64,000 nucleotides of DNA from Haliclona indistincta (taxonomy: Eukaryota; Porifera; Demospongiae; Haplosclerida; Chalinidae): assembly GCA_964017065.1 (NCBI GenBank), contig OZ024786.1, forward strand, positions 10,731,047-10,795,046, written 5' to 3'. This document shows positions 1,436 to 52,600 of this stretch, piece after piece; position 1 is the first letter of the stretch, and every line of letters starts with the position of its first letter. Under the pieces are notes generated by a model. That model made no database searches. It saw only the letters and a list, made by a program, of their open reading frames with translations, and had not been told where the DNA came from. The position numbers and the translations under genes were made by a program.

Positions 1436-1910
1436 TACTTATGTTATACACCACTATACACTAACGAGGCTAAATTATATCAATGCTCAGGCTCGCCCCT
1501 GCCATTCCATGAATTTACTAGTATTATGTAAATGCATGGTTAAAATGGTACAAGTCACCTATTCCATGCCCACCTGGAAATGCATACCATTTACACTGGT
1601 TATTGTGTTAATAAACCCTCTGGCTATCCCCTCGGGTTTACAATACCTCTTGTATAGGTATCACACCTGGTCGGCATGGAATAATTACTACATGTATAAT
1701 CCTTCATTACTGTGTGGGTAGCAACATTTTACCAATGACTGCACTCAGGCTAGAAACCAAAACACCAACAAAAACCGAAAACGACAATTTTTATACTGGC
1801 AAGCAGAAAAATTAACAGTAGTGGAGAATAAACAATTAGACGATAATAATAACTATTGTGGCTAAGATGTAAAATCTAATTGTAGGCACCTGATACTGTC
1901 AGCAACCTCT
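1436..1910. other. Residual 3' region of adaptor copy A
   Basis: No gene is seen. From about 1690 the sequence matches the last intron of the other adaptor copies (for example near 32330-32530 and 43940-44110). The terminal SH2 exon of copy A should lie left of this, but it is missing. Confidence 0.5.
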
Positions 1911-6530: not shown

Positions 6531-9500
6531 TTACACGACTTGAGTAAAACGTTTGGGCCAGTGAACATGTCGACCAGAGCGAGTAGTGCGAGTGTTTGGT
6601 GTTGTTGGTGTTGGTGTCTTTGGCTGTGTTGGTGTTGGTGTCTTTGGCTGCGTTGGAGTAACTTGTGTTGTGGCAGGTGTTTCATTAGATTCAATGTAAG
6701 CTGGCTTTAAGCGATGGACTGATATGGTGTCCTTGCGATTGTGCAATTGTAACACAAAGTACTTGTCTGTGCGTTTGATGACAGGATATGGTCCATCGTA
6801 TGGAGGTTGTAGCGGTTTGCGGACTGCGTCATGTCGGATGAAAACATGTGAGGCTTTTAGGAGTTCAGCTGGTATTGAGTTCTTGCACTGAGAGGTGCGG
6901 GGAGGGACTGGACGAAGTTTCTGTATATGGTTCTTTAACTGATTTACATAGTCAGAAGGATCCGCAGTAGTGTGATCGATGGAGGTAGAGAAGAATTCTC
7001 CAGGTAGGCGAAGTGTGGTACCATACACCATCTCAGCAGCTGTGGTCGAGATGTCAGTTTTGAGTGCCGTCCGAATACCCAAGAGAACAAATGGGAGAGC
7101 ATCCATCCATGCTGATGGGTTTGGTTGGGCTTTGAGAGCTGACTTCAGGTGACGGTGGAAGCGTTCAACCATACCATTGGATTGAGGGTGGTATGCTGTG
7201 GTGCGGGAACGTTTGGAACCTGTAAGAGACATCAGTGCTTGCCACAGGTTTGATTCGAATTGACGACCACGGTCTGTTATGATCTGTGAGGGTGTACCAA
7301 AGCGAGCGACCCAGCCATGGAGGAAACCTCGTGCTACTGATTCAGCAGTAATATCTGTGAGAGGAATAGCCTCTGGCCATCTGGTGAACCGATCAATGCA
7401 GGTGAGAAGGTAAGTGAAGCCATGAGATGGTGGTAGAGGACCAACTAGATCCACATGGATTGTGTCGAACCGGGCATTTGGTGTGAAGATAGAGGCTGGT
7501 GTTGTAGAAGCATGTCGCTGAATCTTTGCTCGTTGGCACGGTATACAAGATTGTGTCCATCTGCGGATGTCAGCGTTGATGCCGGGCCAGACAAATCTTG
7601 CAGTGATCAGTCGTTGGGTAGCTCTGATACCTGGATGTGACAAACCATGTAAGGAGTCAAATACAGTTCGTCGCCATGGAAGAGGTATGAGGGGGCGTTG
7701 GATACCAGTGGAAACATCACAAAGGATCGAGTCTTTTGAATTGTGGAGTGGAATTGGTTTCACAACCAGAGGAGAGGTAGGGGAGGATTCCAAAGCACGT
7801 ATTTGACGATCTGTCTGCTGCTCCTTGGCTATGGCGGAGAAATCTAACTCTGGAGGTTGACCGGACAATAAAGCGTTGGTTTCAATGCGTGAGAGTGCAT
7901 CGGCAACAACATTGTCTGAACCTTTGATGTGACGGATGGTGGATGTAAATTGGGAGATGAAGTCCAGCTGACGAGCTTGTCGAGGAGAGTGTCGATCTGG
8001 GCGGGAGTGTAAGGCATAAGTCAGGGGCTTGTGATCCGTGAGTACATGGAATAAACGACCTTCAAGGAAGTGTCGAAAGTGATGAATAGCTAGGTAAACT
8101 GCGAGTAGCTCTCTGTCGAAGGTACTGTACCTAGTTTGTGTGGGTGTTAGCTTTCTTGAGAAGAATGAGATTGGTTGCCAAGTTCCATTGACGAACTGCT
8201 GTAATACTGCTCCCACTCCAGTGTCAGATGCGTCAGTAACCAGAGAAGTAGGGGCATCGGAACTTGGATAACAGAGTTGTGTGGCATTCACCAGAGCATC
8301 TTTGATTGCATAGAAGGCTGATAAGGTTGCATCGTTCCAGATAAGGACTTGTGATTTGGGTTTGGAACTGTCAAGTAGTGAGTGTAGTGGGAGCATTAGT
8401 TCGGCGCAGTGAGGAAGGAAGCGATGATAGAAGTTGACCATGCCAACAAACTGTCTCAAGCTGCGCTGCGTGGTTGGTAGAGGGAATTCACGGATAGCGT
8501 CAACTTTGCTTGGTAGGGGAGTAATACCCTTGTTACTGATGTGATGTCCAAGAAAATCGAGTTCAGGGGCACCAAAGAGGCATTTGTTAGGATTGATGAC
8601 GACACCATATGTAGTAAGGCGTTCGAAAACCAGTCTGAGGTGCTCAAGGTGTTCCTCTTTGGAGGTGCTAGCGATGAGTACGTCGTCAATATAAGCGTAT
8701 GCAAATGACAAACCTCGTAGCACTTGATCCATGAATCGCTGGAAAGTCTGAGCTGCGTTCCTTAATCCAAAAGGCATGCGAAGAAACTCAAACAGTCCGA
8801 AGGGAGTAGTGATTGCTGTTTTGGGAATGTCTTCTGGAGCGACCGGGATCTGATGGTATGCCCGTACTAGGTCTAATTTGGAAAAGATGCTAGTACCTTG
8901 TAGTGATGATGAGAAGTCGTGGATGTGAGGGATTGGGTAGCGGTCAGGTTGAGTGCACCAGTTTAGAGAGCGGTAGTCTCCACATGGGCGCCAATCACCA
9001 GGTGTCTTTTTGGGAACCATGTGAAGAGGTGATGACCAGGAACTGGAGGATGGGCGTATGATCCCTAGCTGCATCATGTGTTCAAACTCCTGCTTGGCTA
9101 CTTTGAGCCTATCTGCTGCAAGTCTGCGAGGGCGAGCTGAGACAGGGGAACCTGTAGTATCGATGTGGTGAGTAATGTTGTGTTTAACTGTGGTGTTAGG
9201 AGAGGACACATTAGTGAGAGAGGGAAAATTTGTTAACAAGTTGAGATAAGGATTATTGTGACTTTTAGGGAGGATACATGGGCTAGGTGAGTGTTCAGGG
9301 GAGAGAATGCCTTGAATATGTAATTGTGTAGCTGTGTCGATCAGTCTGCGTTGTTTCATGTCCACCAATAGTCCGAAATGTTTGAGAAAATCGGCTCCGA
9401 TGATTGGTTTCTGCACATCAGCCATGATGAATAACCATGAGAAGGATCGTCGGAGTCCAAGATTGAGAGTGAGGGACTGTTTACCATACGTCGAGATAGG

Positions 9501-9719
9501 TGTAGCATTAACGGCAGTGAGAGTAAGTTTGTCTGGTGTGCGTTTGGGAGAGGTAGAAGGAATTACACTAACTTCAGAACCAGTGTCGACAAGAAAATGT
9601 GTATGGGTATGTGCGTCTGTAACGTAAAATAGAAGGCGACTATTAGAGTTGGAGCCGGTATCGCTTGTCGCCGCTAGCGTCCGGCTGGGGAGTTTCCCCA
9701 GCTGCATGGTTCCTGACAC
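6531..9719 (-). CDS. pol: Gypsy Pol polyprotein
   Basis: A reading frame of 1062 residues. The aspartic protease has [12 protein letters not shown] near residue 45. The reverse transcriptase has the catalytic box YIDDVLIAS. RNase H follows, with [13 protein letters not shown] and a DREL motif. The integrase has an HHCC zinc finger (HPG, then CIPCQ), a DDE core with [16 protein letters not shown] and [13 protein letters not shown], and a basic C-terminal tail with TPT-type repeats. It overlaps the end of Gag by 46 nt in the -1 frame, so it is probably made as a Gag-Pol fusion by ribosomal frameshifting and not from its own start. All expected catalytic residues are visible and I see no stop or frameshift. 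Confidence 0.95.
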
Positions 9720-10591
9720 TTCTTGGCAGCCTCTCCAAACTTGTGATGGTACCAGCAGAGAGGGTGTGAGTCAGGCGTGGGCGTTGGTGGTCGGCGTGGG
9801 CGGGACAAACTTCGTTTGCGTTCTCTGGGTCTGGTGGAAAGTGATGACACGAGTTCAGTCAGACGGGACACCTCAAGTCGGAGTTCTTTAATGTCTGCTT
9901 GGACTTCTTCAGAGTATCCTGAGCGGTTGCTGTGAATGGCTGAGATGCTTGGTGCACGGCCACCAGCTACATCGATTATCTTGTCAGCCATGTCAGCGAG
10001 TTTGTCGACGTCCACTGTAGCCGCATCAGCAGAAGCGAGGATCATTCTTACGCTGTCTGGTAGGCGCTGAAGGAACAACTCTCGGACTAAGTTCTTGGCG
10101 TCGGGCGAGGAGCCGAGTTGTTCTCCCAACAGTTGCTGCATACGACGGAGTAGCTGTGTTGGCTTCCTGTCACCTAGCTCTTCGCCGCTGATGAGTTGCT
10201 GGAGTTTCCGTTGTTCTGAGGCGGCAGTGCGTTTGATCAACTGTTCTTTCAGTTTATCGTATGGAGTGATCGTGGGTGGTTTGAGGAGCAGATCACGGAC
10301 CTCGGTTGCGAACTCTGGACTCAGAGAGCTGACTACATAGTCGAAGCGAGTCTTCTGCGCGATGATGCGTCTTGTGGTGAACTGCGCTTCGACCTGCGCA
10401 AACCAGACTTCTGGGTCTGCAGGCCAGAATGGAGGGAGTTTGATGGTGACGGCGCTGATGGCTGGAGTGCTGCTTAGAAGAGAACCTGTTGCTAAAGGTG
10501 AAGCCGTGGAAGTTGTAGCAGTGCCGTCTGAAGCTGAAGCTGTGGAGCTTGTAGTAGAGCTTGTAGTTGCGGTAGAGGAGGCTGTAGACAT
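9674..10591 (-). CDS. gag: Gypsy Gag protein
   Basis: A frame of 305 residues from ATG at 10591, shortly after the 5' LTR. It has a Ser/Thr-rich N-terminus and then the Gag-like stretch around [19 protein letters not shown], typical of retrotransposon Gag with a helical capsid region to about residue 210. A basic Arg-rich segment and a C-terminal Cys/His cluster (CWYHHKFG, then KKCQEPC) follow and probably bind RNA. It ends in TAG just after a -1 slippery heptamer, consistent with a Gag:Pol ratio set by frameshifting. Confidence 0.9.
9692..9698 (-). promoter_or_regulatory. -1 ribosomal frameshift slippery heptamer
   Basis: On the coding strand the Gag zero frame reads G GGA AAC, a canonical XXXYYYZ heptamer (GGGAAAC). 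It lies inside the 46-nt Gag/Pol overlap, and a shift back by one base enters the Pol frame. TGGGGA and TCCCCA flank it and could pair. This explains how Pol is expressed without its own start. Confidence 0.75.
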
Positions 10592-10603
10592 GATGGACTA
10601 CTA

Positions 10604-17257: not shown

Positions 17258-17266
17258 AGTGATAGT

Positions 17267-18724
17267 ATGGAAAAGAAGCCAGCGATCATAGTCATTGCTT
17301 GCTGTGTACTGATTCACGTCACAGTGATTGGATCAGATGTGATTCTGTATCACACCGCTGGACCAATAAGCTCGATGATATACCTGACTGTACAAGGAGT
17401 GATCTATCTACTCTATCCATTCCTTGGCTGGATCACTGATGTCTGCGTAACTCGATACCGGTCGGTCCTTTTCTCTTTCATCATAATGATAATGGGAGCT
17501 ATTTTAACGATTCTGGCTGGCACACTGTATATTGTTACACACCATTTCAACTTTTTCTATATTGGTGAGTTTTCCATCGTTATTGGTCTCTTTGGTTTGG
17601 GGCTGTTTGAATCCACAACCATTCAGTTTGGTATGGACCAGATGCTGGAGGCCTCCTCAGGACAGCTCAGTACATTCATTCACTGGTACTACTGGAGCAG
17701 CTTCTGTGGTCGACTGATCGTTGAGTACATTGTTCTCAGTGTATCAATCTACTACAGCCAATGCACAACCTCCATTGAGACTCTAAGTCATTTTTTTCGT
17801 TACTTGCATACCAGCTTTAATTCTATTGTCTTTTCTACCTCAATAGTGATTTTTGGTAGCATTCAACTAGTGTGTGCCAGTATTGGTCTTTTTATTCTTT
17901 TGTGGAACAAGAAACATCTTGTTATTGATCGTACAGGCCAGCATCCTCTCAAGCTTATCTACATGGTGCTCAAGTATTCTTGGAAACACAAACGCCCTGA
18001 GAGACGCAGTGCCTTCACCTACTGGGAGGAGGATATTCCAGCTCGCATAGACCTGGGGAAGAGCAAGTATGGAGGACCGTTCACCACTGAAGAGGTAGAG
18101 GACACTAAGACATTCTTTCGTATTCTCCTTCTCCTTTTGTCACTGGTTGGGTTTCATCTAACGGGTCATGGATACTCTTTGCTGAATCAATTGATGAAGA
18201 CACAGTGTCCCTCATCCTGGGTGTTTCTTTTCATGGGTGATCCAATGCATCTTACTGTCCTTACAATTCTTATTGGAATACCATTTTATCAGATTGTAGT
18301 AGCTCGTCTTGGCAATCATTGCCACATAAATATGCTAAAGAGGATGGGTCTGGGGTTACTATGCTGTTTTTGCAGTGAAATTGTTAATATCATCATACAA
18401 TCAACGATGATGACAGAATACACACATTGCCATCACATTGATAAAGTTCACATTGTCTCATGCTTTATCTATCTTTCAAAGATTAGTATTAATGGTACTT
18501 GCTACAATGCAACTGAAGTTGATCACAGATACTATTGTGACTTTAACAACACTCCATTTCTGTTGATCGTTATTCCCAGTATTCTACATGGTCTGTCTAT
18601 TCTGCTGGTGTTCATGACTGCTCTCGAGTTCATCTGTACTCAGGCTCCTCTGACTGAAAGGACTCCTCATTGGTCTGTGGTATGCCACTCTTGCTGTCAA
18701 CTATCTACTGTTTGGTATACCTGA
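17267..18724 (+). CDS. POT/PTR (SLC15-like) MFS transporter, frameshifted near the C-terminus
   Basis: An intronless frame of 485 residues with many hydrophobic segments, consistent with a proton-coupled oligopeptide-transporter-type MFS protein. Seen in the sequence: an N-terminal membrane segment after MEKKP; the loop LGWITDVCVTRYRS at the position of the POT GxxxDxxxxR motif; a central cytosolic loop with TYWEEDIPARIDLG and FTTEEVEDTKTFFRIL, characteristic of POT-family loops; and a luminal Cys-rich loop ending CDFNNTPF. The last ~25 residues are out of frame: the conserved continuation GLLIGLWYA lies in another frame from 18660. As written, the protein loses its last membrane segments and tail. 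Substrate is unknown. Confidence 0.75.
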   Translation: MEKKPAIIVIACCVLIHVTVIGSDVILYHTAGPISSMIYLTVQGVIYLLYPFLGWITDVCVTRYRSVLFSFIIMIMGAILTILAGTLYIVTHHFNFFYIGEFSIVIGLFGLGLFESTTIQFGMDQMLEASSGQLSTFIHWYYWSSFCGRLIVEYIVLSVSIYYSQCTTSIETLSHFFRYLHTSFNSIVFSTSIVIFGSIQLVCASIGLFILLWNKKHLVIDRTGQHPLKLIYMVLKYSWKHKRPERRSAFTYWEEDIPARIDLGKSKYGGPFTTEEVEDTKTFFRILLLLLSLVGFHLTGHGYSLLNQLMKTQCPSSWVFLFMGDPMHLTVLTILIGIPFYQIVVARLGNHCHINMLKRMGLGLLCCFCSEIVNIIIQSTMMTEYTHCHHIDKVHIVSCFIYLSKISINGTCYNATEVDHRYYCDFNNTPFLLIVIPSILHGLSILLVFMTALEFICTQAPLTERTPHWSVVCHSCCQLSTVWYT

Positions 18725-25420: not shown

Positions 25421-28400
25421 TCACTTATAATACTTTGATGAGTGCACTGGATATTGAAAAGATGCTAGTACTCCATGATCACTAATTGATATATAACTAG
25501 CTTTAATAAGACATTGCATCACTAATGTGTTGATAGAGTCATATCTTTCTCTCTCTCCTTCAAGTCTTAACCAATCACCATCTCTATAAACATCCAGACT
25601 GATCACCTTTCTCTGTAACCTGAAGAACAATTGTAAATTCTAAGTGTAGGCACCTGATACTGTTTGGTACTACTTACACAATATCCACTGTGAAAAGGTG
25701 ATTGGGACCTGACAGGTCAGTTGCTCTCACTAGGAATGTTTCATCTATCCTCCCTCTCAGCAACTTCTCTGACTCCTCCTTACTGAGCTGTCTGCAGAGC
25801 CATGTGCTCTGATCATGGTGAGGGTAATGCTTGGGAAGTGATGCCACATCACTGAATGTGAAACACTGTGGAAAAAAGATATTGCTTTGTACTAAGATAC
25901 ATAGATTATCCAAAGCATGCCTACTCAGCATGCGTTGCATGAGCATTATGATATTCACATTGTGAATTTACTTGAGACACACTCACTGGTATGATAGTAG
26001 GAATATCTGATGGTAGGTTAGCAAGAGTATCTCTGCAGATAGTGAGAAGTGATAAAGGCAAACACATTACTGATAGCTCACTTGTCAGGAAATAGTCGAT
26101 TGGTGAATGTAACTAATGTTGTTGCTTCATTAATAGTAAACCCTGCTCTTGAGAGAACAGCTACAAAGTGTTCAACTGATGTGACTTCTTCATTATTGAG
26201 GAATCCATAGTAGTGTCCTCTTTTGTAGATTGGTACATGCTCAACCCTCCCATTCAAACTGTACAAACAATAAACACCAGTTACCATCATGGTGACATGT
26301 ACTACCAAGCCCGGCCCGTAGACAGGGGGGGTTCGGTGGGTTTGGACGAACCGCCCAGGCTACCCAACGGTCCGCTTGAAGTCTTCAGAAAATTACTATA
26401 CTGGCTACTTTCTACTCCACAAATCGCTGTTACTAGTGCAGAAGACTGCAGTAATACGGCTAGCTTCCTAGTTGCATGCACGATATACGCGATCGCGAGT
26501 ACATGTAACCACTCTGTCGATTGATACGCCCTAATGAATAATTAATTAGCTAAAAATTTTCGCCTACGCTTCGCGCCGCATACACAAACCCCTTCTCTCA
26601 AAATCCTGGCTACGCCCTTGACTACTCACACAATACAGATATCATGTGTGTTGATTGATGATGATGATGGATCAGAAGCAGGTTTCCCACTCTTCCCTCT
26701 GACGAGAAAGGTTCCATCTGGTTTATAAGTCAAGATATACTCAGCCTCATCTCTTGTGATCTGCCATATTGAGCTGGAGGGCTCACTCTGAGTATGTTGA
26801 CAACCATTATGTACTATACCATCATCATTAACACCATCACTCACAACATTGAAGTGTGTCATACTCTTCATCCTGTCGCCACTATGATTATTGTCCTGGT
26901 CATCTGCAGTTAGTACTATAACAAGTACAAAATACAGACAGTAAATAATTATAATTATAGTGTCAAGCGCATCATAATGTGTATCCAGCAAATAAATAAG
27001 TGTGCACTAGATGAAAAGATTACCTTTTAACTGAAGTGCAATGGTTAGTTGAAGTACAAGATCTTTCACAAGTGATATCTGATGATCAAAATCTAAAGTG
27101 ACACCGTTTCTATGATAACATGTTCTCACCTCATTCTGATCACTGGTGTCCACTACTATAGTGTCTCCTACCCTAAGGTAGGTGACACTGCTCTCCACAA
27201 GCAGCTCCCTGTTCTTTTGTGCTAGCCTCACTAGTTCAATCATTAGATACTGTGGAGCACAGCAGATTACCCGTACACTCCCTCCTCTAACCACAATGAT
27301 GTGTACATAGACACTCTGTTCCTCAAAGGCTTGTTGGAGAAGATCTTTTATATCAGAGAGTGTTTTCTCTGCTGGGCTCCAGCGCAATTTGAAGGTGATG
27401 GTTGTACTTGTAGAAGATGTGAAATCTACTGACTTTGTATTGAGGAATGGTTTCATGTAGATATGCTGTATTAACGTTTGATGGCAGAATTCATTTACAA
27501 ATTGATAGTATTTCCCGATTTCTTCAGTGACAGAAGGGATATTAAATCGCCTAGCGACTCCTTTAAGATGTGTGCAACATGTGAAGGATGAGTATTTCTG
27601 GATAATATCGATGATATCTGAGATAGTGTGAGCATTATCCAGTGAATCAGTCATCTCTGGGAATCTGGAAACATATCGTTTTAATCGCTCTGTAGTGACT
27701 GATTCATCATTTTCTAATATCTCAGCTACTTCATCAAAGAGCTGAGCAAATCTATCCTGGATGTCTTCAAAATCTTCTCGAAACTTTCCAGGAACTATGA
27801 CCTGAGTTGATGTATCTATACATGCAGAGAAAGAGTCTACTTATAAATACGAAGCATATGCATTAATGCAGATATAGTACCTTGAGTATTAGATGCAGTA
27901 GTAGCCAGACTAGTAGTTGATGTGGTACATGTAGCTAAAGCAGTGACTGGTAAGACACATTCTATAAAAATAATAATAACAAAATGTGAAGTTCATTTAT
28001 GTTGACAGGTGAATTATACTATGCAATGTCAGTAATACTTGTTTCACTGCTGTAGACACAGAAATATTCGAGTGATAAATAATTCAAGTCTTAAATTTTG
28101 AAGGGATTTAATTTTCAAGATGTTTATCTCCTCGAAAATTTTCGTCTCACTCACACAAAAATGGCAGTAGCAGTGAATCAATATCAAAACACTCCCTAGA
28201 TTCTAGCATGTCTCTGTATTCGTTGTTATCATGTTTATAAATACAGACATCTGAGTAGCTACTGTAGAGGAAAGCTTGAATAATGCGACAGAAGCACCGT
28301 CATTGGCTAGCTAAAATAGCAATGGCAGTGTTGACGAATGGGATCTACATGTGCTGATACACAGTCCACGAAGGATCTGGCAGCTCGGCAGCTCGAACTG

Positions 28401-29924
28401 AGGCCATGGTCCCCCAAAATGTCCCACTAGATAGCATAGCCAATAATAAGCTACACAAAATGGGTTTGGTAAAAAAATGTATGCAGCCTCTTTTAGCAAA
28501 GTGGAGGTCAAAGTTACCATAAAAAGTAACTAATCTTAGCTGTTTTTTTCTACTCTGCATAAAATAATACACCTCATATTATTTATCATGGAATAATTAT
28601 TATGATCCTCCTAAAAAATTTTTCCTAGAACGGCCACTGTAACCAGTGTCTGTTCGGTACCGCAATACCTAAGTTCGAGCTGCCGAGCTGCCAGATCCTT
28701 CGTGGACCGTGTATCAGCACATGTAGATCCCATTCGTCAGCACTGCCATTGCTATTTTAGCTAGCCAATGACGCCGCTTGAATTTTTCGTTGCGCTTATA
28801 ATAATTCTTAAGATGATTTAATTTTTGAGATTGGTCTAAACCTCGAAATAAAGTCGCTATGAAAATTTTTACGTCATGGTTTACAGTATAAACCAAGTAT
28901 CCTAACTAGATACAGCAGCAAGACCACGCGGTTGTCAAGTTTACGGAGAGCACTACAAAGATGTCGAAAGTATCGCGATCTCTCCCATAAGCCCCATATA
29001 AATTCGTGTATTAATGTTAGCGCTTACGTAATCATCTCGCACCCCAGCAGAGCGGTGTGCCCACGCATACATTCCAGGCATACTTTGCTCTTAGGGGGAA
29101 TGGGCTATTGTCTTATTAATTGACAGTGCAGATTTTCAGCTAGACATAATTATTATACTTGGTTTCGCGACACAGATGGAATGTTCTCGCTGGTATACTT
29201 TCGTAAAATTTATTCGTGGAGCCTGTGCAACAGTAGGTAGTCACCTCATCATAGCGAGTTTTTCTATTTATATTCACATTCAATCACGCCTCCGTCATGA
29301 AACCAAGTATTAAGGAATTCTGTACTTGGACGTTCCCTGCCTCCTGGCCGAAAGTGGGGATGCCCAGTCCCCTATATTTCCAAATTGTCTGTCATTGCAC
29401 TATAAAACTACCAGGGTATTCTGTACCATTATTGCCCACACAGAATGCGTGAATAAACACATATTAAACATTCTGCAACGCTTTTATTCTAAACAGAACA
29501 TCAAGCTTTATCTCAATACTATCAATATCTGTAGTAGTACCTGAGAGAGCTAGAGGGCAACCAACTGCTGTAGCTAGCTCCTCAGCTACAGCAGGCTCGT
29601 CACACATCACGACAGCATCAATCAACATAATCCACTGGTTGCCGGTAGTGCTGCCTACCCACCGGGAGATTAGCTCCTGAAGCATACCAACCATGTCCTT
29701 CACATTATTAGCTTCGATGCTTGTAACGAGACTAGCAACCCGCAGACCATTGGCGAGAGATTTCCACTTGTGAGAGGGAAACTTGGCTTTTTGAAGCTGA
29801 AACAAAACTGTGTCGACATTGAAATCTGAGCACCGGGCACGAAACAGACGACATTATGATAGACGGATCAACAGAGATATAGTGTGGTCTTACCTTGTAC
29901 TGGAGTGAGGACAGTTTGAGCCAT
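25421..29924 (-). CDS. Death domain - novel domain - SH2 - SH2 adaptor, copy B (intact)
   Basis: Nine exons, all phase-compatible and without internal stops: 29894-29924, 29541-29825, 27881-27961, 27024-27815, 26630-26903, 26082-26258, 25987-26032, 25678-25865, 25421-25619. Total 2073 nt, 690 residues. Domains: Death domain about 10-105 (FPSHKWKSLANGL, LISRW, LIDAV); Thr/Ser/Ala linker to 132; unrecognised domain 133-396; SH2-1 about 440-546 (WQITRDEAEYIL, TFLVRG, HVPIYKRGHYYG); SH2-2 about 584-690 (WLCRQLSKEE, TFLVRA). Both phosphotyrosine-binding arginines are present and there is no catalytic domain. A role coupling phosphotyrosine to death-fold partners is inferred. The Death-domain exon could also end at its own stop with AATAAA at about 29490, giving a short product. 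RNA evidence would decide. Confidence 0.8.
26295..26622. mobile_element. Insertion in an SH2 intron of copy B
   Basis: In copy B the intron that is 48 nt in copy A is about 370 nt. The extra ~328 bp begins near GCCCGGCCCGTAGACAGGGG and ends near ATCCTGGCTACGCCC. It leaves both splice sites intact. It is probably a small non-autonomous element of unknown class. Confidence 0.65.
28297..28780. repeat. Foldback repeat in the first large intron of copy B
   Basis: 28297-28410 and about 28670-28780 are inverted copies (around TAGCAATGGCAGTG and GGATCTGGCAGCTCGG). Copy A keeps only the left arm (4460-4570). Confidence 0.7.
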
Positions 29925-32086: not shown

Positions 32087-35000
32087 TCACTTATAATACT
32101 TTGATGAGTGCACTGGATATCGAAAAGATGTTCGTACGTTATGATCACCCAACTGTATAGGAAATGTTCCGGTAACATAACACATCACCAATGTGTTGAT
32201 AGAGTCATAACTGTCTCTCATTCCTTCCAGACTTAACCAATCACCATCTCTATAAACATCCAGACTGATCACCCTCCTCTGAAACCTGAATAACAATTAT
32301 CAACAATTGTTCACATCTTCAAGAGTATACATGTATAATCCTTGATTACTGTGTGGGTAGAAACATTTTACCAATGGCTGGACTCAGGCTAGAAACTAAA
32401 ACACCAACAAAAAATCAAAAAGATAATTTTTATGCAAGCAAGCAGAAAAATATTAATAGTGATGGAGAATACACATTTATCATTATCATTTGTAATTATG
32501 CATAATAATAAGTTTTGTGGCTAAGATGTCAATTCTATAAGTGTAGGCACCTGATACTGTCTGGTACTACTTACACAATATCCACTGTGAAAAGGTGATT
32601 GGGACCTGACAGGTCAGTTGCTCTCACTAGGAATGTCTCATCTATCCTCCCTCTCAGCAATTTCTCTGACTCCTCCTTACTGAGCAGTCTGCAGAGCCAT
32701 GTGCTCTGATCATGATGAGGATAATGCTTGGGAACTAGTGATGCCACATCACTGAATGTGAACCGCTGTGGAATTAAGATATTGCTTTGTACTATGATAC
32801 ATAGTGTTTCCAAAGCATGCCTACTCAGCATGCGTTTAGCATTACAGTATTTACATCGTGAATTTAGACACACACTCACATGTGTGATAGTAGGAATATC
32901 TGATGGTAGGTTAGCAAGAGTATCTCTGCAGATAGTAAAAAGTGATAAACAGAAATAACAATACTGATAGCTCACTTGTCAGGAAATAATGGATTGGTCA
33001 GTGTAACTAATGTTCTTCCTTCATTAACAGTAAACCCTGTTCTTGAGAGAACCGCTACACAGTGTTCAACTGATGTGTATTTTTCACAATTGAGTGATCC
33101 ATAGTAGTGTCCTCTTTTGTAGATTGGTATATACCTGACCTTCCCATTGACACTATATATACAAATAATAAACACCAGTTACCATGGTGACATGTACTAC
33201 TCACACAACATTGATGACATGTGTGTTGATTGATGATGATGATGGATCAGTAACACGTTTCCCACTCCTCTCTCTGACAAGAAAGGTTCCATCTGGTTTA
33301 TAAGTCAAGATATACTCAGCCTCATCTCTTGTGATCTGCCATATTGAGCTGGAGGGTTCACTCTGGGTATGTTGACAACCATTATGTACTATACCATCAT
33401 CAGTAACACCATCACTCACAACACTGGAGTGTGTCATACTCTTCATCACATCCTCAGCTGCTGTGGGTAGGAAACACACATGACCCATGTGTACAGTATG
33501 CCTGCAACGGAGACACATCAGTACAATGGATTACCATACCTTGAGAATCAGGTCCACTCAACTTGTGCTGGGAATCTGCTGCAAAGTTAATGATAAAGAT
33601 ACAATTACAGCACATAAGCCAAGAAACAAACTGCATCAGCTAGTTGCTGTATGAATTATTATGGAGTACCTGCAAAAGTTCGAATTGTGATGGGGTTAGT
33701 GACAGATTTTTGAGGTTCTTGTGATCTGTGTATAGCCTATTGAAAGAAGTACATGCACTACACTGCATGTAGTGTACATATTGCACTCACTTGAGCAGCA
33801 AGGCTGCTGTCACTTGAATGTACAAGAACTCTTCTGTCTTCCACAGAACTATGTGTTCTGTCACCATGATCATCTATAGTTAGTGAAAATAAATACATAA
33901 CAGCTACAAATGCAACATCATAATCATAAATTTAAGTATCATAACTAGTGTCAAGCATATCTTTGCATCATGTAACCATAGATATTACAGTACGGGATAG
34001 GAAACCTCACTTAATTGGGTGGTCCAGAGATAATATATACTACGTAACGAGAGCACAATAATATATACTACGTAATATATACTACGAACTTCGCCTTATA
34101 TACTACGTTACGTATAGGTTAACCCATGGCACCTCGGCGGTACGCGATATAACCTCGGGGTTATATCGCGCGCACCTCGGGGTTATATCGCGATATAACC
34201 TCGGGGTTATATCGCGATTTTACTGCCATCGTGCGCTTCGCGCCCTCGGGCGATAAAATTAACCCCCGAGGTTATATCGCGTACCGCCGAGGTGCCATGG
34301 GTTAACCATTTTGTAGCCCAGGAAGCTCGAGAATCCTGCTCTTATGGTTACTAAACGAAGCGCTCAAGGTAGTAGAGCCTCCATAGAAGTCACCAGAGGC
34401 GAATGATAACGCGTTGCTGAAAGACGGCAGTGTAATCTTGCGTACGTTTTTCGACGACGCCATCTTGTTGCTACTGTGTTGCTATGTGACGTCACTTCCT
34501 GGAAAATACACGATTCATTTTCTATCGCATACGAGATATAACCACCGTGCGGCGCCTTTGATCTTACGGTCGCCTGGGCTACAAGTAGTATTATCTCTGG
34601 GTGGTCGACGTCGGTGCGCATTACCCTTGACGTCACATGACGATTACATTTCCGTGTATTTTCCGCGTTCCGTGTATTGTGCTGTCCGTGTTTGAAATAA
34701 ACGGAGAATCTCTGATAGCACAGCCAAGAATCTACCAAGAACTTCGCCTTTTTACACGGTCAAAGAACGGCTAGTTGTCTGGATATCCAGCCCAGTACAC
34801 ATCGTAGGGTATGTACCGCTGGTTTAGAGCTTACAAAGCGCCATTGATCCAGCCAGTATGGAGAATTTGTGTATACAAAATCCTGACCAACGGAGACGAA
34901 TTCGGGTCTATAGCGGATAAAGTATACTTCTTGGCAACGTACTAACTGGTTCAGTACACCCAGACGACTAATGGCTTTGTATTGGTACCAAAATCAAGTC

Positions 35001-36632
35001 ATAGAACCTTTGCCTCTTCGAGAATTTGTGTATATAGATCTGTAATCAGCCATTATACACTTACAAATCTTCTGTTTGCCGTGAGGTGCCAGTACTGGTA
35101 TCCACTCAAGGCCGGTAGTATGAAACATGCAATCTTCAACAATACAATAAACCACCTTGACGTGACGTCACGTAATACATTTTGATTCAGAGGAAATTTT
35201 AGTTTCCTATCCCGTACTGTAATATCTATGATGTAACTGATGTAAAGGATAATGCATGCAATGTGCTCAACATGCAAATCTCGCAAAACATCACCTTTCA
35301 ACTGAAGTGCAATGGTTAGTTGAAGTACAAGATCTTTCACTAGTGATATCTGATGATCAAAATCTAAAGTGACTCAGTTTCTATGATAAGATATCCTCAC
35401 CTTATTCTGATCACTGGTGCCCACTACTATAGTGTCTCCTACCCTAAGGTAGGTGACACTGCTCTCCACCAGCAGCTCCCTGTTCTTTTGTGCTAGCCTC
35501 ACTAGTTCGGTCATTAGATACTGTGGAGCACAGCAGATTACCCGTACACTCCCTCCTCTAACCAGAACGATGTGGACATAGACACTCTGCTCATCAAAGG
35601 CTTGTTGGAGAAGCTCCAGTACATTGGACAGTGTCTTGTCATTTGGACACCACCTCAAATGAAAAGTGATGGTTGCAGAAGGCGCAATAATAACTGATTT
35701 GTCAGTGAGGAACGGTTTCATGTAGATGTGGTGTGTCAACTCGTACTGACAAAATTCACTTACTAACTGATAGTATTCCTCAATTTTTTCAGTGACAGCA
35801 GAGATTTTGAATCGTCTAGCGACTCCTTTGAGATACGTACACGATGTAAGAGATGAGTGTTCCTGAATTATATCGACGATATCTGAGATAGTGTGAGCAT
35901 TATCCAGTGAATCATTCATCTCTGGGATTCTAGAGACAAATCGCTTTAGCCGTTCTAAACTAATTGCCTCCTCATTCTCTAAAATCTCAGCTACCTCATC
36001 AAATAGTTGGGCAAATCTATTCTGAATGTCTTCGAAATCTCGACGATACTTTACAGGAACTATGACTTCAGTTGAGGTAACTATCAAAAAAGTGAAATAA
36101 AAATAAAATGTAAGAGGCACAACTACTGTAAATGTAAGTGGCACATACAAGTTTGAACAGCAGCTAGAGTAGTAGCATAATTTTATTAGTGTGTGAGGTT
36201 TTTAACCTGAATAAGTAGAAGAGGTTGCATTAGAGTTTTCGTTGGTTAAATGTCCAGTAGATTGCTTAGCTGTGAAAACAACAACAAACTTACTAACACC
36301 CCTGACAATAAGACTTACCTTTGTTCAATTCTTTTTTTCATTCTTCTCGCTATGGGACCAGATGCTGGAAACTGCTCGAGAGTCTCAACAAGGATCCATA
36401 TCTTTCCAGGATCACCTCTAACAACCTTCCTCACTGCGCTCATGAGATCTGACTTCCTCTGAGCCAGTGAAGTGGACGCTAGCTCAGCCTCATCGAGCTG
36501 TCCCTCCGTCAACACGCCACCTTGCCACAACTTCCTGGCTACTGCTGCAGGATCGAGCACTGCCTCGATTTCACTGTAAAATCGTCTCAAAACGTTCGAC
36601 TCGTCACGATCAGTTGGTGAATCTGTTGCCAT
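32087..36632 (-). pseudogene. CARD - novel domain - SH2 - SH2 adaptor, copy C (disrupted)
   Basis: The N-terminal exon 36319-36632 encodes a CARD-like helical domain instead of a Death domain (FYSEIEAVLDPAAVARKLW, GGVLTEGQLDEAEL, LMSAVRKVV, IWILVETLEQF). Later exons: 36207-36269, 35295-36080, 33791-33873, 33670-33736, 33540-33578, 33205-33460, 32976-33152, 32880-32925, 32575-32765, 32087-32285. Both SH2 domains retain FLVR. Two problems are visible. The CARD exon ends in phase 2, while the next exon needs phase 1 (one A fewer in an A7 run would fix this). A TGA at 35374-35376 interrupts the end of the novel domain. It may be a pseudogene, or may make a CARD-novel-domain protein without SH2. 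A 1254-bp transposon sits in one intron. Confidence 0.75.
33977..35230. mobile_element. 1254-bp TIR element in an intron of copy C
   Basis: Perfect 29-bp terminal inverted repeats (outer part CATAGATATTACAGTACGGG) are flanked by a 7-bp target duplication ATGTAAC (33970-33976 and 35231-35237). Copies A and E show the uninterrupted intron. The interior holds a large nested palindrome at 34106-34310 built from CGATATAACCTCGGGGTTAT units. No transposase frame is convincing, so it is non-autonomous. Confidence 0.85.
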
Positions 36633-43691: not shown

Positions 43692-46600
43692 TCACTTATA
43701 ATACTTTGATGAGTGCACTGGATATCGAAAATATACTAGTACTGTATGATCACCAATTGGTATATGACTAGCTATAATAGCACAGCACATCACTAATGTG
43801 TTGATAGAGTCAAATCTTTCTCTCCTTTCTTCAAATTGTAACCAATCCCCATCTCTATAAACATCCAGACTAATCACCTTCCTCTGTAACCTATAAAGAA
43901 CATTTATAAACAATTTTTCACATCTTCAAGAGTATACATATATAATACTTAATTGATTACTGTGTGGGTAGCAACATTTTACCAATAGCTGGACTCAGGC
44001 TAGAAACTAAAACACCAACAAAAGATCTGTTTTTATGTTAGCAAGCAGAAAAGATTAATATTGACGGAGAATACACATTAATTTTATCATTATCATTTGT
44101 AATTAGACGATAATAATAACTTTTGGGGCTAAGATGTAAATTCTAAATGCAGGCACCTGATACTATTTTGGTACTACTTACACAATATCCACTGTGAAAA
44201 GGTGATTGGGACCTGACAGGTCAGTTGCTCTAACTAGGAATGTCTCATCAATCCTCCCTCTCAGTAACTTCTCTGACTCCCCTTTACTGAGTAGTCTGCA
44301 GAGCCATGTGCTCTGATCATGGTGAGGGTAATGCTTGGGAAGTGATGCCACATCACTGGATGTGAACCACTGTGGAATTAAAATATTGCTTTGTACTATG
44401 ATACATAGTGTTTCCAAAGCATGCCTACCCAGCATGCGTTGAGCATTGTGGGGGTATTCACATCGTGAATTTACTTGACACACACTCACTGTTATGATAG
44501 TAGGAATATCTGATGGTAGGTTAGCAAGAGTATCTCTGCAAATAGTGAGAAGTGATAAACACAAACAACAATACTGATAGCTCACTTGTCGGAAAATAGT
44601 CGATTGATCAGTGTAACTGATGTTGTACCTTTATTCACAGTAAACCCTGTTCTTGAGAGAACTGCTACAAACTGTTCAACTGATGTGTGTTTTTCATTAT
44701 TGAGTGTTCCATAGTAGTGTCCTCTTTTGTAGATTGCTACATGCTCAACCCTCCCATTGACACTGTACAAAAAATGCACCATTGGTGCTGGTTATGCCTC
44801 GGTGGATGTGAAAAGTTGAGCATGTACAGCAAGTCATTAATAATAATCTGTATTATCTCTAAAAACTATATGTATATTATTGCCATAATGAGAGCATTGT
44901 ACAGCTTGTACTGTATCATTGACATGTTTTATGCATAATCTTATTAACAGTACTGTTAAAGAATTAGTTAGCGTGGTTCAATCACACTGACTCTTGTTCT
45001 TGCCAATGTGGTTATCCAGGTGAAGCATGTTGCTTTCGACCTTTCTTATTCCCACAAGTTTGGATCAAATCAGCGAATTGAAGAGAATACTGAGTACAAT
45101 TCCAGTGTAATTATTGTTATGAACTTAAAGAAAATGAACAAGTGTTTGTATGAGTAAAATGATTAGCAGTCTTGAATTCGAAAATCACTGAATCCTACTG
45201 CTTCGGATATATTCATTCAGGTCATTTAGAGAAGTTTGTCATATCAAATTCTACAGTCAGGCAACTTTAATTCGAAAATCAGCAAATTGAAGAGAATACT
45301 GAATACAATTCCAGTGTAATTATTATTATGAAAGAGAATGAACAAGTGTTTTCATGAGTAAAATGATTACCAGTACTAGTCTTGAATTCGAAAATCACTG
45401 AATTGAAGAGAATACTGAGATTACAATTCCAGTGCGAATTTTCAATAAAATGAACAATTGTTTTTATGAGTCAAATGATTAGCAGTTGGAAAGATGATCA
45501 GTAAGAAAATGAAAGAATTGTTTTTTGATCTGTATTGTATGTAAGAGTGGCAAATACTGGTAAGGAAAGAAGTAACTTTTCAGTTATGTCATCTCCAACA
45601 AGTTTAGTTAAGAGTTCAGCTGATGCAGATAAGGGTGTAAATTTTTCATGAGATCGAGACAGGACAAGTAAATGGGCAGTTTTTTGTATCCGACATAGAT
45701 CATACCTCTGCATCATTGAACAAGTTAGAACAGAGCATCTTCCAAGTGGAGGAGTAGACGGTTCTACTCTTCCTTTACAGCGCATGCATAATCGAATAGA
45801 GTCTAGTTTTGACACAGCAACAATCTGTGCTCCATAAAGAATAGTTGTGTCTGATGGTTGATCCATATCCACAGCTTCATAATGAACATCCTCAAGGTCT
45901 TCCACTTCTTGAACATTAGATTCGTTTCTAGCTTTTGATAAGTATCTACTCGAAGCATATTCTCGAACTAGAAATCCGCTAAGTAAATAAGAAGCATCTC
46001 GGTTCATAGTACCAACATCATTTTCCCACAGTTGCAGCAATCCAGTTCCGGTTGAATCTGCAATCGTTATGTCTTGCCGTGTTTTTAGTCCAGCTGCAAC
46101 AGGATCTGCAACTGAAATTACTTTCACGGTAATATCAACACGTTCGTAGACATCGGTTTCTTGCAGTTGTGATAAAGTAATTGTGATAGCCCTTGAAGAG
46201 TCAACTTCTTGCCGGGGAACATCTATTTTCTTGGGCGATTCCATTATCTTGGTAGTTCCCTTTAATAACAGCTCCAATTTGTCTCCACGCCATGGTTGCT
46301 TAGCCTCACAGTCAACAATTTGAACCGGCTGTCTTTCTTCCATAAATTTTGCAAGCAACTTTTGCTGACTGCTGCTAAAACCAACTATACGTCTTTTATC
46401 GGATTCATCTGAAAGTGTTCCGTCGAAGTAGTTCGACTTACGACCCTGTTTTAAAGGTGATACTGCTGTTATGACACCGTGTACTTGAACTTTGGAAGTC
46501 GGCTCTTCTAGTGAATTGAGATCGTCCAGTTCTTTGATTTGTCTCTTAGCCATCATGTGGTGACTGGGTAATGCGGCAGGTTCTTGAGCAAATGTCTTCC

Positions 46601-49600
46601 CTCGGCGATTGTGTCGGTGGCGATCCAGCTACTGAGGACTGAGCAAATCTGTACTCCACTTGTCGGCGAGATTAGACTCATGCAATCCAGGAGCACCGCT
46701 GAAATCTCTCCACTCGACTCAGTATTAGATGCGATCCAGAAGCAAATGTCTCCCCACTCGACGATTCGGTGCGATCAAGGAAAACTGAGAAGCTTGCAGT
46801 TCGAAATAAGAAGTCTGTCACGATTCGGTGCGATCAAGGAAAACTGAGAAACTTGCAGTTCGGAATAAGAAGTCTGTCACGATTCGGTGCGATCAAGGAA
46901 AACTGAGAAACCTGCAGTTCGGAACTATTATAGTATAATAGAAGTTTGTCGTCAGTAGCCGTGCTTTATAGAGGCTTTGCGAGGCGTGGTTGGCTGACAT
47001 GTGAAATTTATAATAATTTTTATTAGAAAATTATTGTCATTGTAAAAATAATAAGACTAGTAGAATTATTGTCATTGTAACTTGAATAAGACTAGTATAA
47101 TTATATTTTGTGACTAAGCAGCCATGGTCCTCCAAGTTCAAACTCTGCTGAAGGAGCCAGGAAATGTCTCTGCTCTATGACTGGAAATCTGAATTGTTAT
47201 GTAATATTGACAATAATGGTATAGAACGGAACATGGAATGGTATGGAACGGAACATGGAATGGTATGGAACGGAACATGGAATGGTATGGAACGGAACAT
47301 GGAATGGTATGGAACGGAACATGGAATGGTATAGAACGGAACATGGAATGGTATGGAACGGAACATGGAATGGTATGGAACGGAACATGGAATGGTATGG
47401 AACGGAACATGGAATGGTATAGAACGGAACATGGAATTGTATGGAACGGAACATGGAATAGTATGGAACGGAACACTGTTAATACAATAGGTATGATTCA
47501 CAAAAAGGGAATGGGAATAGAGCAAAACACAACATTGTGATCACTATAGTACACATCACGCACTTGTATTTGTGGATGTGCCCTATAGTACACATGGTCT
47601 ATCAAGGTAGATCTGTCAGTAGTAGGCTCATTCACTAGCTGTATATAACCGTAAGATGACATCAATACTTGGAGTTGAGAATCATGACCAAATAACACAT
47701 CATTATTAAAATCACCCAGTATAACTGTTGGTACACCAGTCGCACTAACATGCTGTAATAATCTAGTCATAAGCTGAACAAGCTGTCTCATAGGTACACT
47801 GGGTGACCTGTATACTACTGCTATTTGTAATCTCTTGTCAGCAACACACACACTGGTAACAAGAGTTTCGATACCATTAGCTACAAACTTCACAGTACTA
47901 GTAGGCTGCATAGCATTAGACACACAGATCATTGTTCCACCCTTGTGATTATTCATTGTTCTATCACATCTCAACACAACATCATGATCAGTGCTAACAA
48001 CAGGTGATGGCTGTGCTGGGGATAACCAGGTCTCACAGAAACATAACACATTAGCACTCATTAGGTCAGTATCTGCTTGTATGTCTGGTAGCTTACCTAC
48101 AATTGATCTAACATTCAGCAATGCTATGGTAACATGACTAGTACATGGTAGGCATTGTAATGGTGGTATAGTCTGTAGCAACTTATTACGCAGTCTAGTC
48201 ATCTCATCATCAACCAGATCACTCTTCCTGATGGCTTTAGGATTGAAATTAACAATATGTAAACCACTCAATGACTTCACTCTACTCAGTGCTACATATA
48301 TTTGACCAGCATTGAACCTAGTACCCATCATATTAACAACAATAGTATCAAGTGTCAATCCCTGTACTTTATGAATAGTAGTAGCCCATGATAGTGTCAG
48401 AGGAAACTGTAATCGTGTAATCTCAGCACCACGCTTGCCTCTAGCTAGAAATGAAACCTCAACTTTGCTCACAGGCACAGCATTGGGATATATTGTATGA
48501 AACCTGCTAGCTTGATGAGCAGTCTGACCAACTTTCTCACAATCAAACTTCACAAGCACAGTGGTTACATCATTGTTATCATTAGTGACTATATGGACCA
48601 CCTCCCCTCTTGCACCATTAACCAACCCATCAGACACAGACACATTAGTGGTCAGCATCACCCTGGCACCAACAGCAATATGCAATATACTATGTAAACC
48701 GCCTGTCTCAGTTCTTTTAGTGGACAATGAGGCTAGATCAATATGCTTAGTTTGACCTGTCACAGCATCACTAGCTTTCACAGCATACCTCCTGACTGTA
48801 CTGGGTATTCTCCTCAACATACTCTCATTATGCTCATCTACATCAGCATTCAGCTTGTACACATGCAATGCTTCACTAGGATAGTCAGGGCTATCAGGGG
48901 ATACCACTCTAGACTCTAGTACAGCAATATCATCATTGGTACAACTAGCAGTTCTCACTCTACACAACAACTCAGCAAATGCACTATCACCTCTTTGCCG
49001 CATAATCTCATCTAGCTCTAAGATTTCAAACTCATCTTGCCATATTGAACCAGACTTATACAACTGCGCATAGCTATCTCTAACAGTACTGAACAACATA
49101 GACTGAGCAACAGGTGGTAACTGATACAAGTCTCCCACAGCTAGTACACTCACTCCACCAAACATTACATCATTAGGCACTCCTTTAATCTGTTGTAATC
49201 TCTTGTGTACCTCTAGTAACATGTCAGCACCAACCATACTCACTTCATCAATAATCAACAACACTAGGTTGGATAGCTTACTACGCAATGTGTTCACCTT
49301 CTCACTACTCAGAGGCTGGAAACCACCATATCTACTTTTACCCAATAGAAATGCTGAGTGTAGCGTCATACCATTCACATTAAAAGCTGCTACACCAGTG
49401 GGAGCTGTTAGCAGTACCAGTACATCATCAGGCTCTACTGATCCAGACTGCTTGATCAACCTAATAGTATCTGACTGTATCAGCCTAATCACATGAGACT
49501 TGCCCACACCACCAGGACCACTCAAGAACACTCTATATGGCTTGATGTGTTCACCTTTCTTCATAGCTAATACTGTTTGCTTACACCAGTGCCTATGGTA

Positions 49601-52600
49601 CATGATCATTGCTCTTTGCTTACTATTCAGACCTCTCATTAGCTCTCTATACTCATCAGGTGGTATTACAGCAGGATTAGCAGCACCTTCATATCTAACA
49701 CTCAAACCACCTGAACCTGTAGTACTACCTTGCACTAGGCTAGCATTGTCTATCAAATCTTGTTGAGCTAGCTCAGTCAGTGTCTCAGCACCTAGTTCAG
49801 CTGCTTGTGCATTACTAGCTTCAGTACTAGGGGCTATCTGACACCAGGCATGCTCAGGTCTATTATCATCATCAACATTAACATTCTCTATATCCTCATT
49901 AGTGTACTTGTTCTCATTCTCAATCACAACAGCTCTAACCTGCTCATAATGCTCAGCATAACTAGCACAACCACCCAGCAGATCTTTCTCCTCATCATAC
50001 CATGGATAATACAACATTAGCTTTGCTCTATACCAATTGCTAACATCACTATCTTTATTGTACTTCCTGAACCTAATCACAGCTTGCTGTCTACGTTCAT
50101 TCATCTGACCATAACCACCAGTTAGTGTAATCTTTTTAGTACTACCCTCACTATCAGTGTCTGGTAATTCATCATTATACACTTCATCATCTTTCTTATT
50201 GTAACATGTGGAATATGAGGCAGCAAATTCAGCTAAACACATGTTCTGGAGTTGCTCTGGTCTATGCTTGTATCTGTCTACTAAGCTCTTCTGAAACACA
50301 TCACTATCTTCCCCATCCAGCTGATCTATTGCATCACGTCCCTTGAGAACAGCAATTCTATCCTTCTTAACATTAGTATCAACAAACACTACAGCTCTAC
50401 TCAATTGTTTCATAGGCAATGACAGCAACCTATACACTGCTTCCTGGGCACTAACTTCTCTGTGGTCTAGAAATGCTGAACCAATCTTTCTCAGCTGTGT
50501 TCTAAGCTCATCTGTTCTCACTTCAGCTGCTACCTGCTTTAGCAACACACCCATTGATTTCTCAGTCTTCATTATGTATGAAGCCACATACATCACACAG
50601 GCATAGGCATCTAGTACATACTGTATATCCATGTTAGCTTGCCATGCTAGCATAACAGAGGGATTGTAGTTATTAACATTCTGCTCATTAGGTTCACGCT
50701 TCAACAACACAACATTACCACCCTTAGTGACCTGTAGTGCTCTAACATACTCATCTCTATCAACACTAGCTCTGGTCAGTACATCATTAATAGTGGCATT
50801 AGGGTCACAGTCTGGCAGCACTTGCCGTACTTTACTCAACACACTCTGAGCCTTGTCATACATTTCACCATCACTACATGGTCTAGCAATGACTGTACTG
50901 GGGCTAGGAGGATGGGGGAAATTGAACCTGCAGCGCTTGTTTCTCTTGCAATATGACGAATGTCTATGCTGCTGGACCATCAACACAAGCTCTTTCAATT
51001 TACAGTCATTAGGCGGAATAGCACATGACACATACTGATCAATGAATGCACACACATCTTCATCACTATCCACACCATACTTTGAAGCATCTTTGACCCA
51101 CAGCACACAATGAGCATGTGGTGACCCTCTAGACTGAAACTCAACTCTTATAGCATAATCAACAATCTCACCCAAAGGCTTGGCTTTAGACTTTAGCACA
51201 TCTTGGAAGAAACTATTCAACCTGTATTGAAAGTGTCTAGCTGCTGTCACAGGGTTGCGTCTTAACCAGTTACTCTTCTCATCAAATGACAATGCTGCTA
51301 CATCATCATCACTGTAACTAACACCATACTGTCTAGCAATGATCTGTATTATATCAGGCCACTTCATATCAGCTGCTGACAGAGTGAAAAACCATGTGGG
51401 AGTACCAAGCTGCCTTATCATTGCTAACAACTCATAAAATGTACGCTGGTAATATGGTGGGGAACCTCTAACATTCTTCAAAAACCTGTAAGCTTTGTCA
51501 GTACGTACATTGTCACTCATAAATGATTTATCTTTCACTTGAGAAGCTGTAATCTGCTGAGTAGGCTTTTGTCTCCATGCAAAGTTATTACCATCATCAA
51601 GCACTTGCTTACATTCAACAATATACTGAGCAACAAATAGGTAATCCAAATCTCTAGCAAATCTACCATCAATATCCTGTAGACGTGCATTGAAATACTT
51701 TCTATAGGTAATCTTTCTCTCTCGCTTATTACCAAAACCACCTTCGCCATAACAAAACTTATCAGGATTACACATGAGCTCAAAGTTGGGATCTGACATG
51801 ATAAACAATGGTTTCTGTCCTTCAGCTGGGGCAATGCTCACTATTTGCTCAGGGTTCTCTAGTGACATCATACTAGCATGAGTACCACCAGTAATCTCTA
51901 GTCTGTGCTGATCACCTGCTGCTATAGTCTCATCATCAATCTCATCACTATTATCATTGGATACTGGGAGGGTATCGTTAGCAACAGTATTGTCTAGAAT
52001 GTCATCAAGACCAACAAAGTGATATTGCATTATTAACCCAAGGCTCAGTGACTGCTCACATACATCATTGATAGGAGTATTCACAGCAATACTGGTACCA
52101 TCCTCATTAGCACAGAACACAATAATGTTCACATCAAACATGTTACACATGACTGATATAGCAATACTATCACCCCAGGCACCTTCACTTAATCTTCTAA
52201 CATACTTCTGATAGCGCAGCTCTTGCTGTAATACAGGGTCTGTAATGGATTCAATATAAGCATCTTCCTCATCAGGTGGTTCATTGTCAGCATTATACCC
52301 ATCACTGCTAGATACTGACTGATGCACAAAGTCACTATAGAAATCACCATAACGTGACAAGTACTGGCACACAGCTTGTCTCAGACTGTTAGCATCAACA
52401 ACATCACGACCTAGATACTGAAGCTGGTATACACATGCATTGAACAAACAGTTGCCATCACTAGGCACATCATGTATTTCAAATCCTTCCTTTCTAGCAA
52501 ACACTTTCAACACATCAGTATAATGAGATACTGGATCACTTGAACCTAAGGCAATACCATTGGGCGGGTCAGAATGTGCATCAGTATCATCATGTTCCAT

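Follow-up and report, generated by a model that had tools for sequence, protein, structure and literature searches.

The window analyzed here is a stretch of 64,000 nucleotides from the sponge Haliclona indistincta, corresponding to positions 10731047-10795046 of OZ024786.1, a chromosome-sized contig (C4) in a genome assembly of 144 Mb and 46 contigs. On its minus strand, at 29924-25421, lies a gene of nine phase-compatible exons, joined across GT-AG introns, which together encode a protein of 690 residues containing, in this order, a Death domain, a Thr/Ser linker, a middle region of 264 residues, an SH2 domain (SH2-1), a short linker and a second SH2 domain (SH2-2). The model that we rebuilt is the same as the one proposed in an earlier note made from the letters of this DNA. 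Specifically, exon 1 (29894-29924) carries the start codon and residues 1-10 and ends at a GT donor in phase 1; exon 2 (29541-29825) encodes the Death domain; exon 3 (27881-27961) encodes the Thr/Ser-rich linker and was found again, together with its flanks, in other copies; and exon 4 (27024-27815) encodes the middle region, read as a six-helix part followed by a TRADD-N-type ACT/RRM-like domain with a Gly-Ser turn. Exon 5 (26630-26903), which is recognized by Pfam as SH2 and keeps the FLVR arginine, supplies a linker and the phosphotyrosine half of SH2-1, exon 6 (26082-26258) its specificity half, and exon 7 (25987-26032) the linker between SH2-1 and SH2-2. The phosphotyrosine half of SH2-2, with the FLVR arginine in every copy compared, is encoded by exon 8 (25678-25865), and its specificity half, a conserved tail and the stop by exon 9 (25421-25619). 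Intron 2 contains an inverted-repeat element (28292-28779) with 112-nt arms that are 96% complementary. Four further entries, P0001-P0004, are by eye single-exon open frames running into introns and were not counted as transcript evidence.

The structure predicted for the Death head is a six-helix death fold, and a Foldseek search with it gave probabilities up to 1.0 and a template-modelling (TM) score of 0.72, with weak E-values (best, 0.26). In a profile search, the THOC1 Death domain appeared at 0.0012, behind an unrelated designed protein at 0.0006, and the Pfam Death family (PF00531) matched 6 of 24 relatives (best, 1.4e-4) and not the window copy itself. Single-sequence Pfam and PDB searches with the first 396 residues gave nothing useful. 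The predicted fold and these relatives agree with the Death domain called in the earlier note. Some paralogues carry a head of another kind: eight full CARD-like heads precede, by 0.1-0.9 kb, middle exons lacking a Death exon, and in two cases head and middle region share one frame, as judged from open-frame lengths. The CARD likeness was judged by eye, and a Pfam search with this head up to E 1 gave no match. We also observed, at locus L037 (3585-4374, minus strand), a copy that has a Death exon and also partial CARD-like pieces between the linker and middle exons, which look as if heads had been stacked and later lost; the same pairing of Death exon and partial CARD-like pieces occurs at two further middle exons. 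Sequences closely related to the Death exon (53-93% identity) are present in other large clusters (C8, 2.1-2.6 Mb; C4, 12.2-13.4 Mb; C6, 8.9-13.1 Mb). Because the Death exon at locus L039 has no middle exon inside the 7 kb examined, the head is probably common to other families too.

The best reading of the middle region is a helical part and then, in the second half, a TRADD-N domain, to which the predicted order of strands, a turn of Gly-Ser and, in relatives, weak Pfam matches all point; on these grounds we dropped the label of a novel domain that could not be named, under which the earlier note had left it. Strands predicted at 136-144, 169-175, 179-187 and 210-215 and helices at 152-163 and 188-200 give the order strand-helix-strand-strand-helix-strand of an RRM/ACT-like fold, at low to moderate confidence (predicted local distance difference test values, averaged over 10 residues, of 40-75, with 114-149 and 174-179 below 50). 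As described by Kaur et al. (2021, eLife; PMC8195603), a feature of TRADD-N is a tiny residue followed by Ser, sometimes Cys, in the turn between strands 2 and 3. Residues 178-179 are Gly-Ser and lie at the predicted strand 2-3 turn; in the alignment of relatives, Gly is present in 22 of 22 and is followed by Ser in 18 or Cys in 4. In Pfam searches with 22 relatives, the two most frequent families were PF20694 (six relatives; best, 0.0018) and PF13820 (three; best, 0.023), and neither matched the window sequence itself. Profile searches of the PDB with the whole middle region and with its second half alone yielded nothing useful, with no TRADD entry returned, and a TRADD chain is absent among the structural matches listed for the predicted TRADD-N-type domain.

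Pfam finds SH2 in two stretches of the protein (44.3 bits), both with the FLVR arginine, as the earlier note had it. Both SH2 domains resemble most the C-terminal SH2 domain (C-SH2) of the PI3-kinase subunit p85, which was closest in most sequence comparisons. With both domains as one query, the best solved match was p85alpha, with the top stretch in SH2-2 (1.7e-7), and the best match of SH2-1 outside the family was the p85 C-SH2 of this genome (1e-8, among 34 SH2 rows). SH2-1 alone against the PDB placed SHP2 slightly ahead of p85, and the nearest genome row of SH2-2 was L136 rather than p85, whose row is without its first residues. A phase-2 intron lies at the same place in this genome's p85 C-SH2; it may reflect descent from that domain, although it could also occur in other SH2 genes. 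A tree of the 34 SH2 rows, which include one junk row (L004, wrong strand), the truncated p85 C-SH2 row and two human p85 rows, gives no resolution of a p85 origin. About 35 residues and no iSH2 coiled coil lie between SH2-1 and SH2-2, and the sole iSH2 match in the genome is on contig C8, none being at this gene. Because the iSH2 is missing, p85 orthology was ruled out. The genome's own p85 (L038; G000:C8:6193001-6199500) seemingly has, by eye from open frames, a C1-like domain before the RhoGAP, nSH2, iSH2 and cSH2; vertebrate p85 begins with an SH3 domain. Membership among the NLR proteins was likewise ruled out for want of a NACHT domain: in agreement with the earlier note, the protein gave no NACHT or NB-ARC match at E 1, and the middle exon matched the NACHT-associated helical family PF22734 insignificantly (0.13).

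The gene is one member of a tandem array. We searched the whole genome with each exon and counted matches in a 2.3-Mb stretch of C4 (8.8-11.05 Mb), all counts being lower bounds. The array holds at least 67 middle-exon entries, with partial pieces merged or dropped (of at least 145 matches genome-wide), at least 66 SH2-1 exons (of at least 75, the others being five outside the stretch and four second pieces), at least 13 Death exons (of at least 135) and at least 12 CARD-like matches, eight full and four partial (of at least 30). Each of the 66 SH2-1 exons listed is preceded on its strand by a middle exon no more than 10 kb away, and for 58 of them no more than 1.5 kb away; 65 different middle exons are involved. 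Conversely, a middle exon lies downstream within 10 kb on the same strand for 12 of the 13 Death exons and all 12 CARD-like matches listed. When Death exons were placed at random, a mean of 3.1 of 13 fell within 8 kb, and 12 was reached in none of 2000 trials. The linker exon sits between the Death and middle exons in the gene described here, in copy 2 of the window and at loci L036 and L037 outside it, where the same exon order recurs. Splice sites are shared among copies; for example, p85 and all 37 distinct family flanks listed keep the GT donor that follows the first SH2-1 exon. In P0101, one open frame contains both a Death domain and a sequence distantly related to the middle region. Because paralogous copies and splice sites agree, the order Death-linker-middle-SH2 is supported at the level of sequence.

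The window contains further copies, all on the minus strand. Copy 2 (43695-58293) repeats the exon order of the gene, from Death and linker through middle to SH2-1 and SH2-2, and a large insertion separates its two SH2-1 exons; in copy 3 (32090-36605) a CARD-like head replaces the Death head and is followed by a middle exon with a stop inside, SH2-1 and SH2-2. Copy 4 (1900-4204) consists of linker, middle exon with a broken frame, SH2-1 and part of SH2-2, with no Death exon between it and the gene at 29924-25421, and a last SH2-2 exon at 62183-62377 belongs to a copy that begins beyond the window. The gap of ~11 kb between the SH2-1 exons of copy 2 contains a frame of 2161 codons (47498-53983, minus strand) that is by eye Helitron-like, with helicase-like and OTU-like parts. 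Between window copies, at 6531-10597 (minus strand), lie gag-like and pol-like frames that by eye are Ty3/Gypsy-like, and a frame of 488 codons at 17258-18724 (plus strand) resembles by eye a multi-pass membrane transporter and shows no sign of kinship to the array. Elsewhere in the array, matches at ~10.92-10.93 and 10.99-11.00 Mb of C4 form pairs with identical or near-identical scores at an offset of 64,990 bases, which suggest a recent segmental duplication within the array or an assembly duplicate.

To compare distinct copies, we used those with at least 55% identity and at least 80% coverage (20 Death exons, 22 and 24 middle-exon halves, 58 and 55 SH2-1 exons, and 23 and 55 SH2-2 exons) and removed stop-bearing copies from codon counts (two and three middle halves, one exon 6 and two exon 9). 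The ratio of nonsynonymous to synonymous substitution rates (dN/dS) was estimated with codon models on fixed FastTree topologies under four frequency models, with kappa on a grid where dN/dS was fixed. For exon 6 of SH2-1 (54 copies) dN/dS was 1.32-1.81 and for exon 9 of SH2-2 (53 copies) 1.39-1.95, and in both exons these estimates fit significantly better than a ratio of 1 under all four frequency models (twice the log-likelihood difference, 6.6-31 and 10.4-46, respectively). The same models gave 0.35-0.39 for the Death exon, 0.25-0.50 for the middle-exon halves, 0.22-0.36 for SH2-2 exon 8 and 0.59-0.80 for SH2-1 exon 5. Tree-based counts gave 1.38 for exon 6 and 1.37 for exon 9 versus 0.29-0.38 for the middle, Death and SH2-2 exon 8 sequences, and an earlier run with fewer copies showed the same contrast between exons. 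Because synonymous divergence (dS) is equal in exon 8 and in the variable exon 6 (0.132 in both), the conservation of exon 8 seems due to purifying selection and not to homogenisation. We conclude that, for these sequences, the contrast in selection between exons is firm and that selection above 1 on the SH2 specificity exons is probable, not certain.

The variation has a distinct distribution within the domains. The specificity pocket of SH2 domains is described as bounded by the EF and BG loops and helix B (PMC9783222). In exon 9 of SH2-2, 12 sites reach at least 2 bits (R18, E22, Q35, C36, I38, K39, A40, S41, Y42, S44, G49 and S53), and when they are aligned to p85 C-SH2, R18 falls at strand E and the others in the EF loop, at the end of helix B or in the BG loop. 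Among 53 copies, these sites occur in 51 combinations, while the tail YPVHSSKYYK is nearly invariant and the FLVR arginine of SH2-2 is kept in 23 of 23 exon 8 copies. SH2-1 differs at its FLVR position, where the 58 copies have Arg (36), Trp (15), Ser (4), Gln (1), Phe (1) or Cys (1), so that 22 of 58 are without the arginine. Its most variable site, at 3.28 bits against a mean of 0.53, is alpha-A2, which by Src-type SH2 numbering is presumably a phosphotyrosine contact position. Stops are present in one of 55 exon 6 copies and two of 55 exon 9 copies, against ~27 and ~44 stop-making changes expected under neutrality. In a pooled count test of the loops the ratio was 1.90 (p 3.6e-9) and 1.95 (p 1.7e-5).

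Our working hypothesis, to which we give an even chance, is that the protein is a cytoplasmic adaptor of the sponge TRADD-N family in which a diversified SH2 pair reads phosphotyrosine targets and is wired to death-fold signalling for defence or cell death. It keeps the earlier note's suggestion of an adaptor that links phosphotyrosine to death-fold assemblies, together with its domain calls; expression, phosphopeptide binding, assembly and the defence role are what we infer. In this mechanism, the SH2 pair would dock onto tyrosine-phosphorylated proteins, SH2-2 through a constant phosphotyrosine pocket, with the EF and BG loops deciding which neighbouring sequence is accepted, and SH2-1 as a second, more freely changing contact that sometimes is perhaps not to phosphotyrosine. 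Docking would cluster several adaptors with TRADD-N as a bridge, and clustering would free or concentrate TRADD-N and the Death head, which (or its CARD-like counterpart in some paralogues) would recruit or seed a death-fold assembly by homotypic contact; the clustering and recruitment steps are modelled on Kaur et al. and on general death-fold biology. Tandem copies would have been retained because each reads its own target, as immune or self/non-self recognition would lead one to expect. Among copies, the target-reading parts vary in a manner resembling that of immune receptors.

Several observations weigh against this hypothesis. A Death exon lies upstream of just 12 of the 67 middle-exon entries listed, three of these 12 also having a partial CARD-like piece, and copies below 55% identity or 80% coverage, hence most frame-shifted ones, are outside the counts. 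In pooled pairwise comparisons, the codon bootstrap of dN/dS spans 1 for both exon 6 (1.25; 0.89-1.73) and exon 9 (1.23; 0.89-1.69), and the loop columns modelled alone give 0.92-3.0 depending on the frequency model. The non-loop columns of exon 6 are above 1 too (1.17-1.35), so the variation of SH2-1 is not confined to loops, and its pocket sites pooled give 0.88. The pooled loop test used ranges picked after the variable sites were known and treated changes as independent, and gene conversion between tandem copies, which would break the tree assumption of dN/dS, is likely. The bootstrap intervals spanning 1 would fit a constitutive signalling adaptor family whose duplicated members are redundant, with SH2 specificity drifting as constraint relaxes and variation that is non-adaptive, as would the loss of the FLVR arginine from many SH2-1 domains, the loop-only ratios near 1 under two of the four frequency models and the stops in the middle exon of some copies. 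We consider such drift unlikely: exon-wide dN/dS is above 1 under all four frequency models, stops are far rarer than neutrality predicts, and variable sites are interspersed with invariant framework sites, with SH2-2 exon 8 constrained at similar dS.

That the locus holds two genes or alternative transcripts, with the Death exon in a separate short protein and a TRADD-N/SH2 gene starting elsewhere, appears improbable. Exon 2 is open beyond its donor up to an in-frame stop at 29464, intron 2 spans 1.6 kb around its transposon-like inverted repeat, and Death exons occur in many places outside the array, L039 included; against this, phases and splice sites fit the nine-exon model, nearly all Death exons of the array precede a middle exon on the same strand, the linker exon is found between the two in four copies, and P0101 joins head and middle-region relative in one frame. 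We hold it to be improbable, too, that the protein is a p85 decoy, in which SH2 domains without iSH2 occupy p85 sites and uncouple p110, with a death-fold output or a mere block of PI3-kinase. The matches of the pair to p85alpha and of SH2-1 to the genome's p85 C-SH2, and the short connection without iSH2, are as such a decoy would have them, but the specificity loops diverge strongly among copies, which makes a shared p85 target unlikely, SH2-2 is nearest to L136, if with an incomplete p85 row, and the tree leaves the p85 origin unresolved.

Several known systems resemble the gene in part. PI3-kinase p85 shares the tandem SH2 domains and the place and phase of the C-SH2 intron, whereas the gene described here is without iSH2 coiled coil and RhoGAP and has Death and TRADD-N domains. 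BCAP (PIK3AP1) likewise joins an innate-immunity domain to PI3-kinase-type phosphotyrosine signalling; it carries YxxM sites and a TIR domain, whereas in the present protein a death fold is joined to the SH2 reader itself. In TRADD, unlike in this gene, the Death domain is C-terminal and SH2 is absent. TRADD is otherwise similar as an adaptor with TRADD-N and Death domains (PMC8195603). The same source reports 357 TRADD-N proteins in the sponge Amphimedon, in most of whose architectures TRADD-N follows between one and three Death-like domains and precedes a variable C-terminus, SH2 being among the C-terminal domains, and higher sequence entropy in the TRADD-N domains of expanded families (PMC8195603). 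Because this large expansion, of the NCOA6 clade, has the Death-like N-terminus, TRADD-N and SH2-bearing C-termini, the architecture is of a known kind, and the earlier note's view of it as undescribed does not hold. What differs from the Amphimedon expansion as described are the tandem p85-like SH2 pairs, the array on one chromosome, Death and CARD-like heads on one SH2 backbone and the hypervariable SH2 loops. The repertoire, a diversified tandem SH2 array, looks new: among the titles and abstracts listed in literature searches, none reports a hypervariable or diversifying SH2 array. The exact architecture may be among those in the supplement of Kaur et al.

The common picture of SH2 domains is of conserved modules that read an organism's own signals. 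Returning to the adaptor hypothesis, we tentatively suggest, as a possibility, that the array is a germline repertoire of SH2-based intracellular recognition proteins, with a fixed pocket, diversified loops and a TRADD-N link to a Death or CARD-like head. Such a repertoire would read phosphotyrosine tags that change, for example on proteins of pathogens, on host proteins that pathogens have altered or on polymorphic receptors; a match would lead to death-fold signalling. If this is true, one of the earliest animal lineages would show that animals have also used phosphotyrosine reading for a repertoire of recognition, and the known, unexplained expansion of TRADD-N proteins would gain a concrete function.

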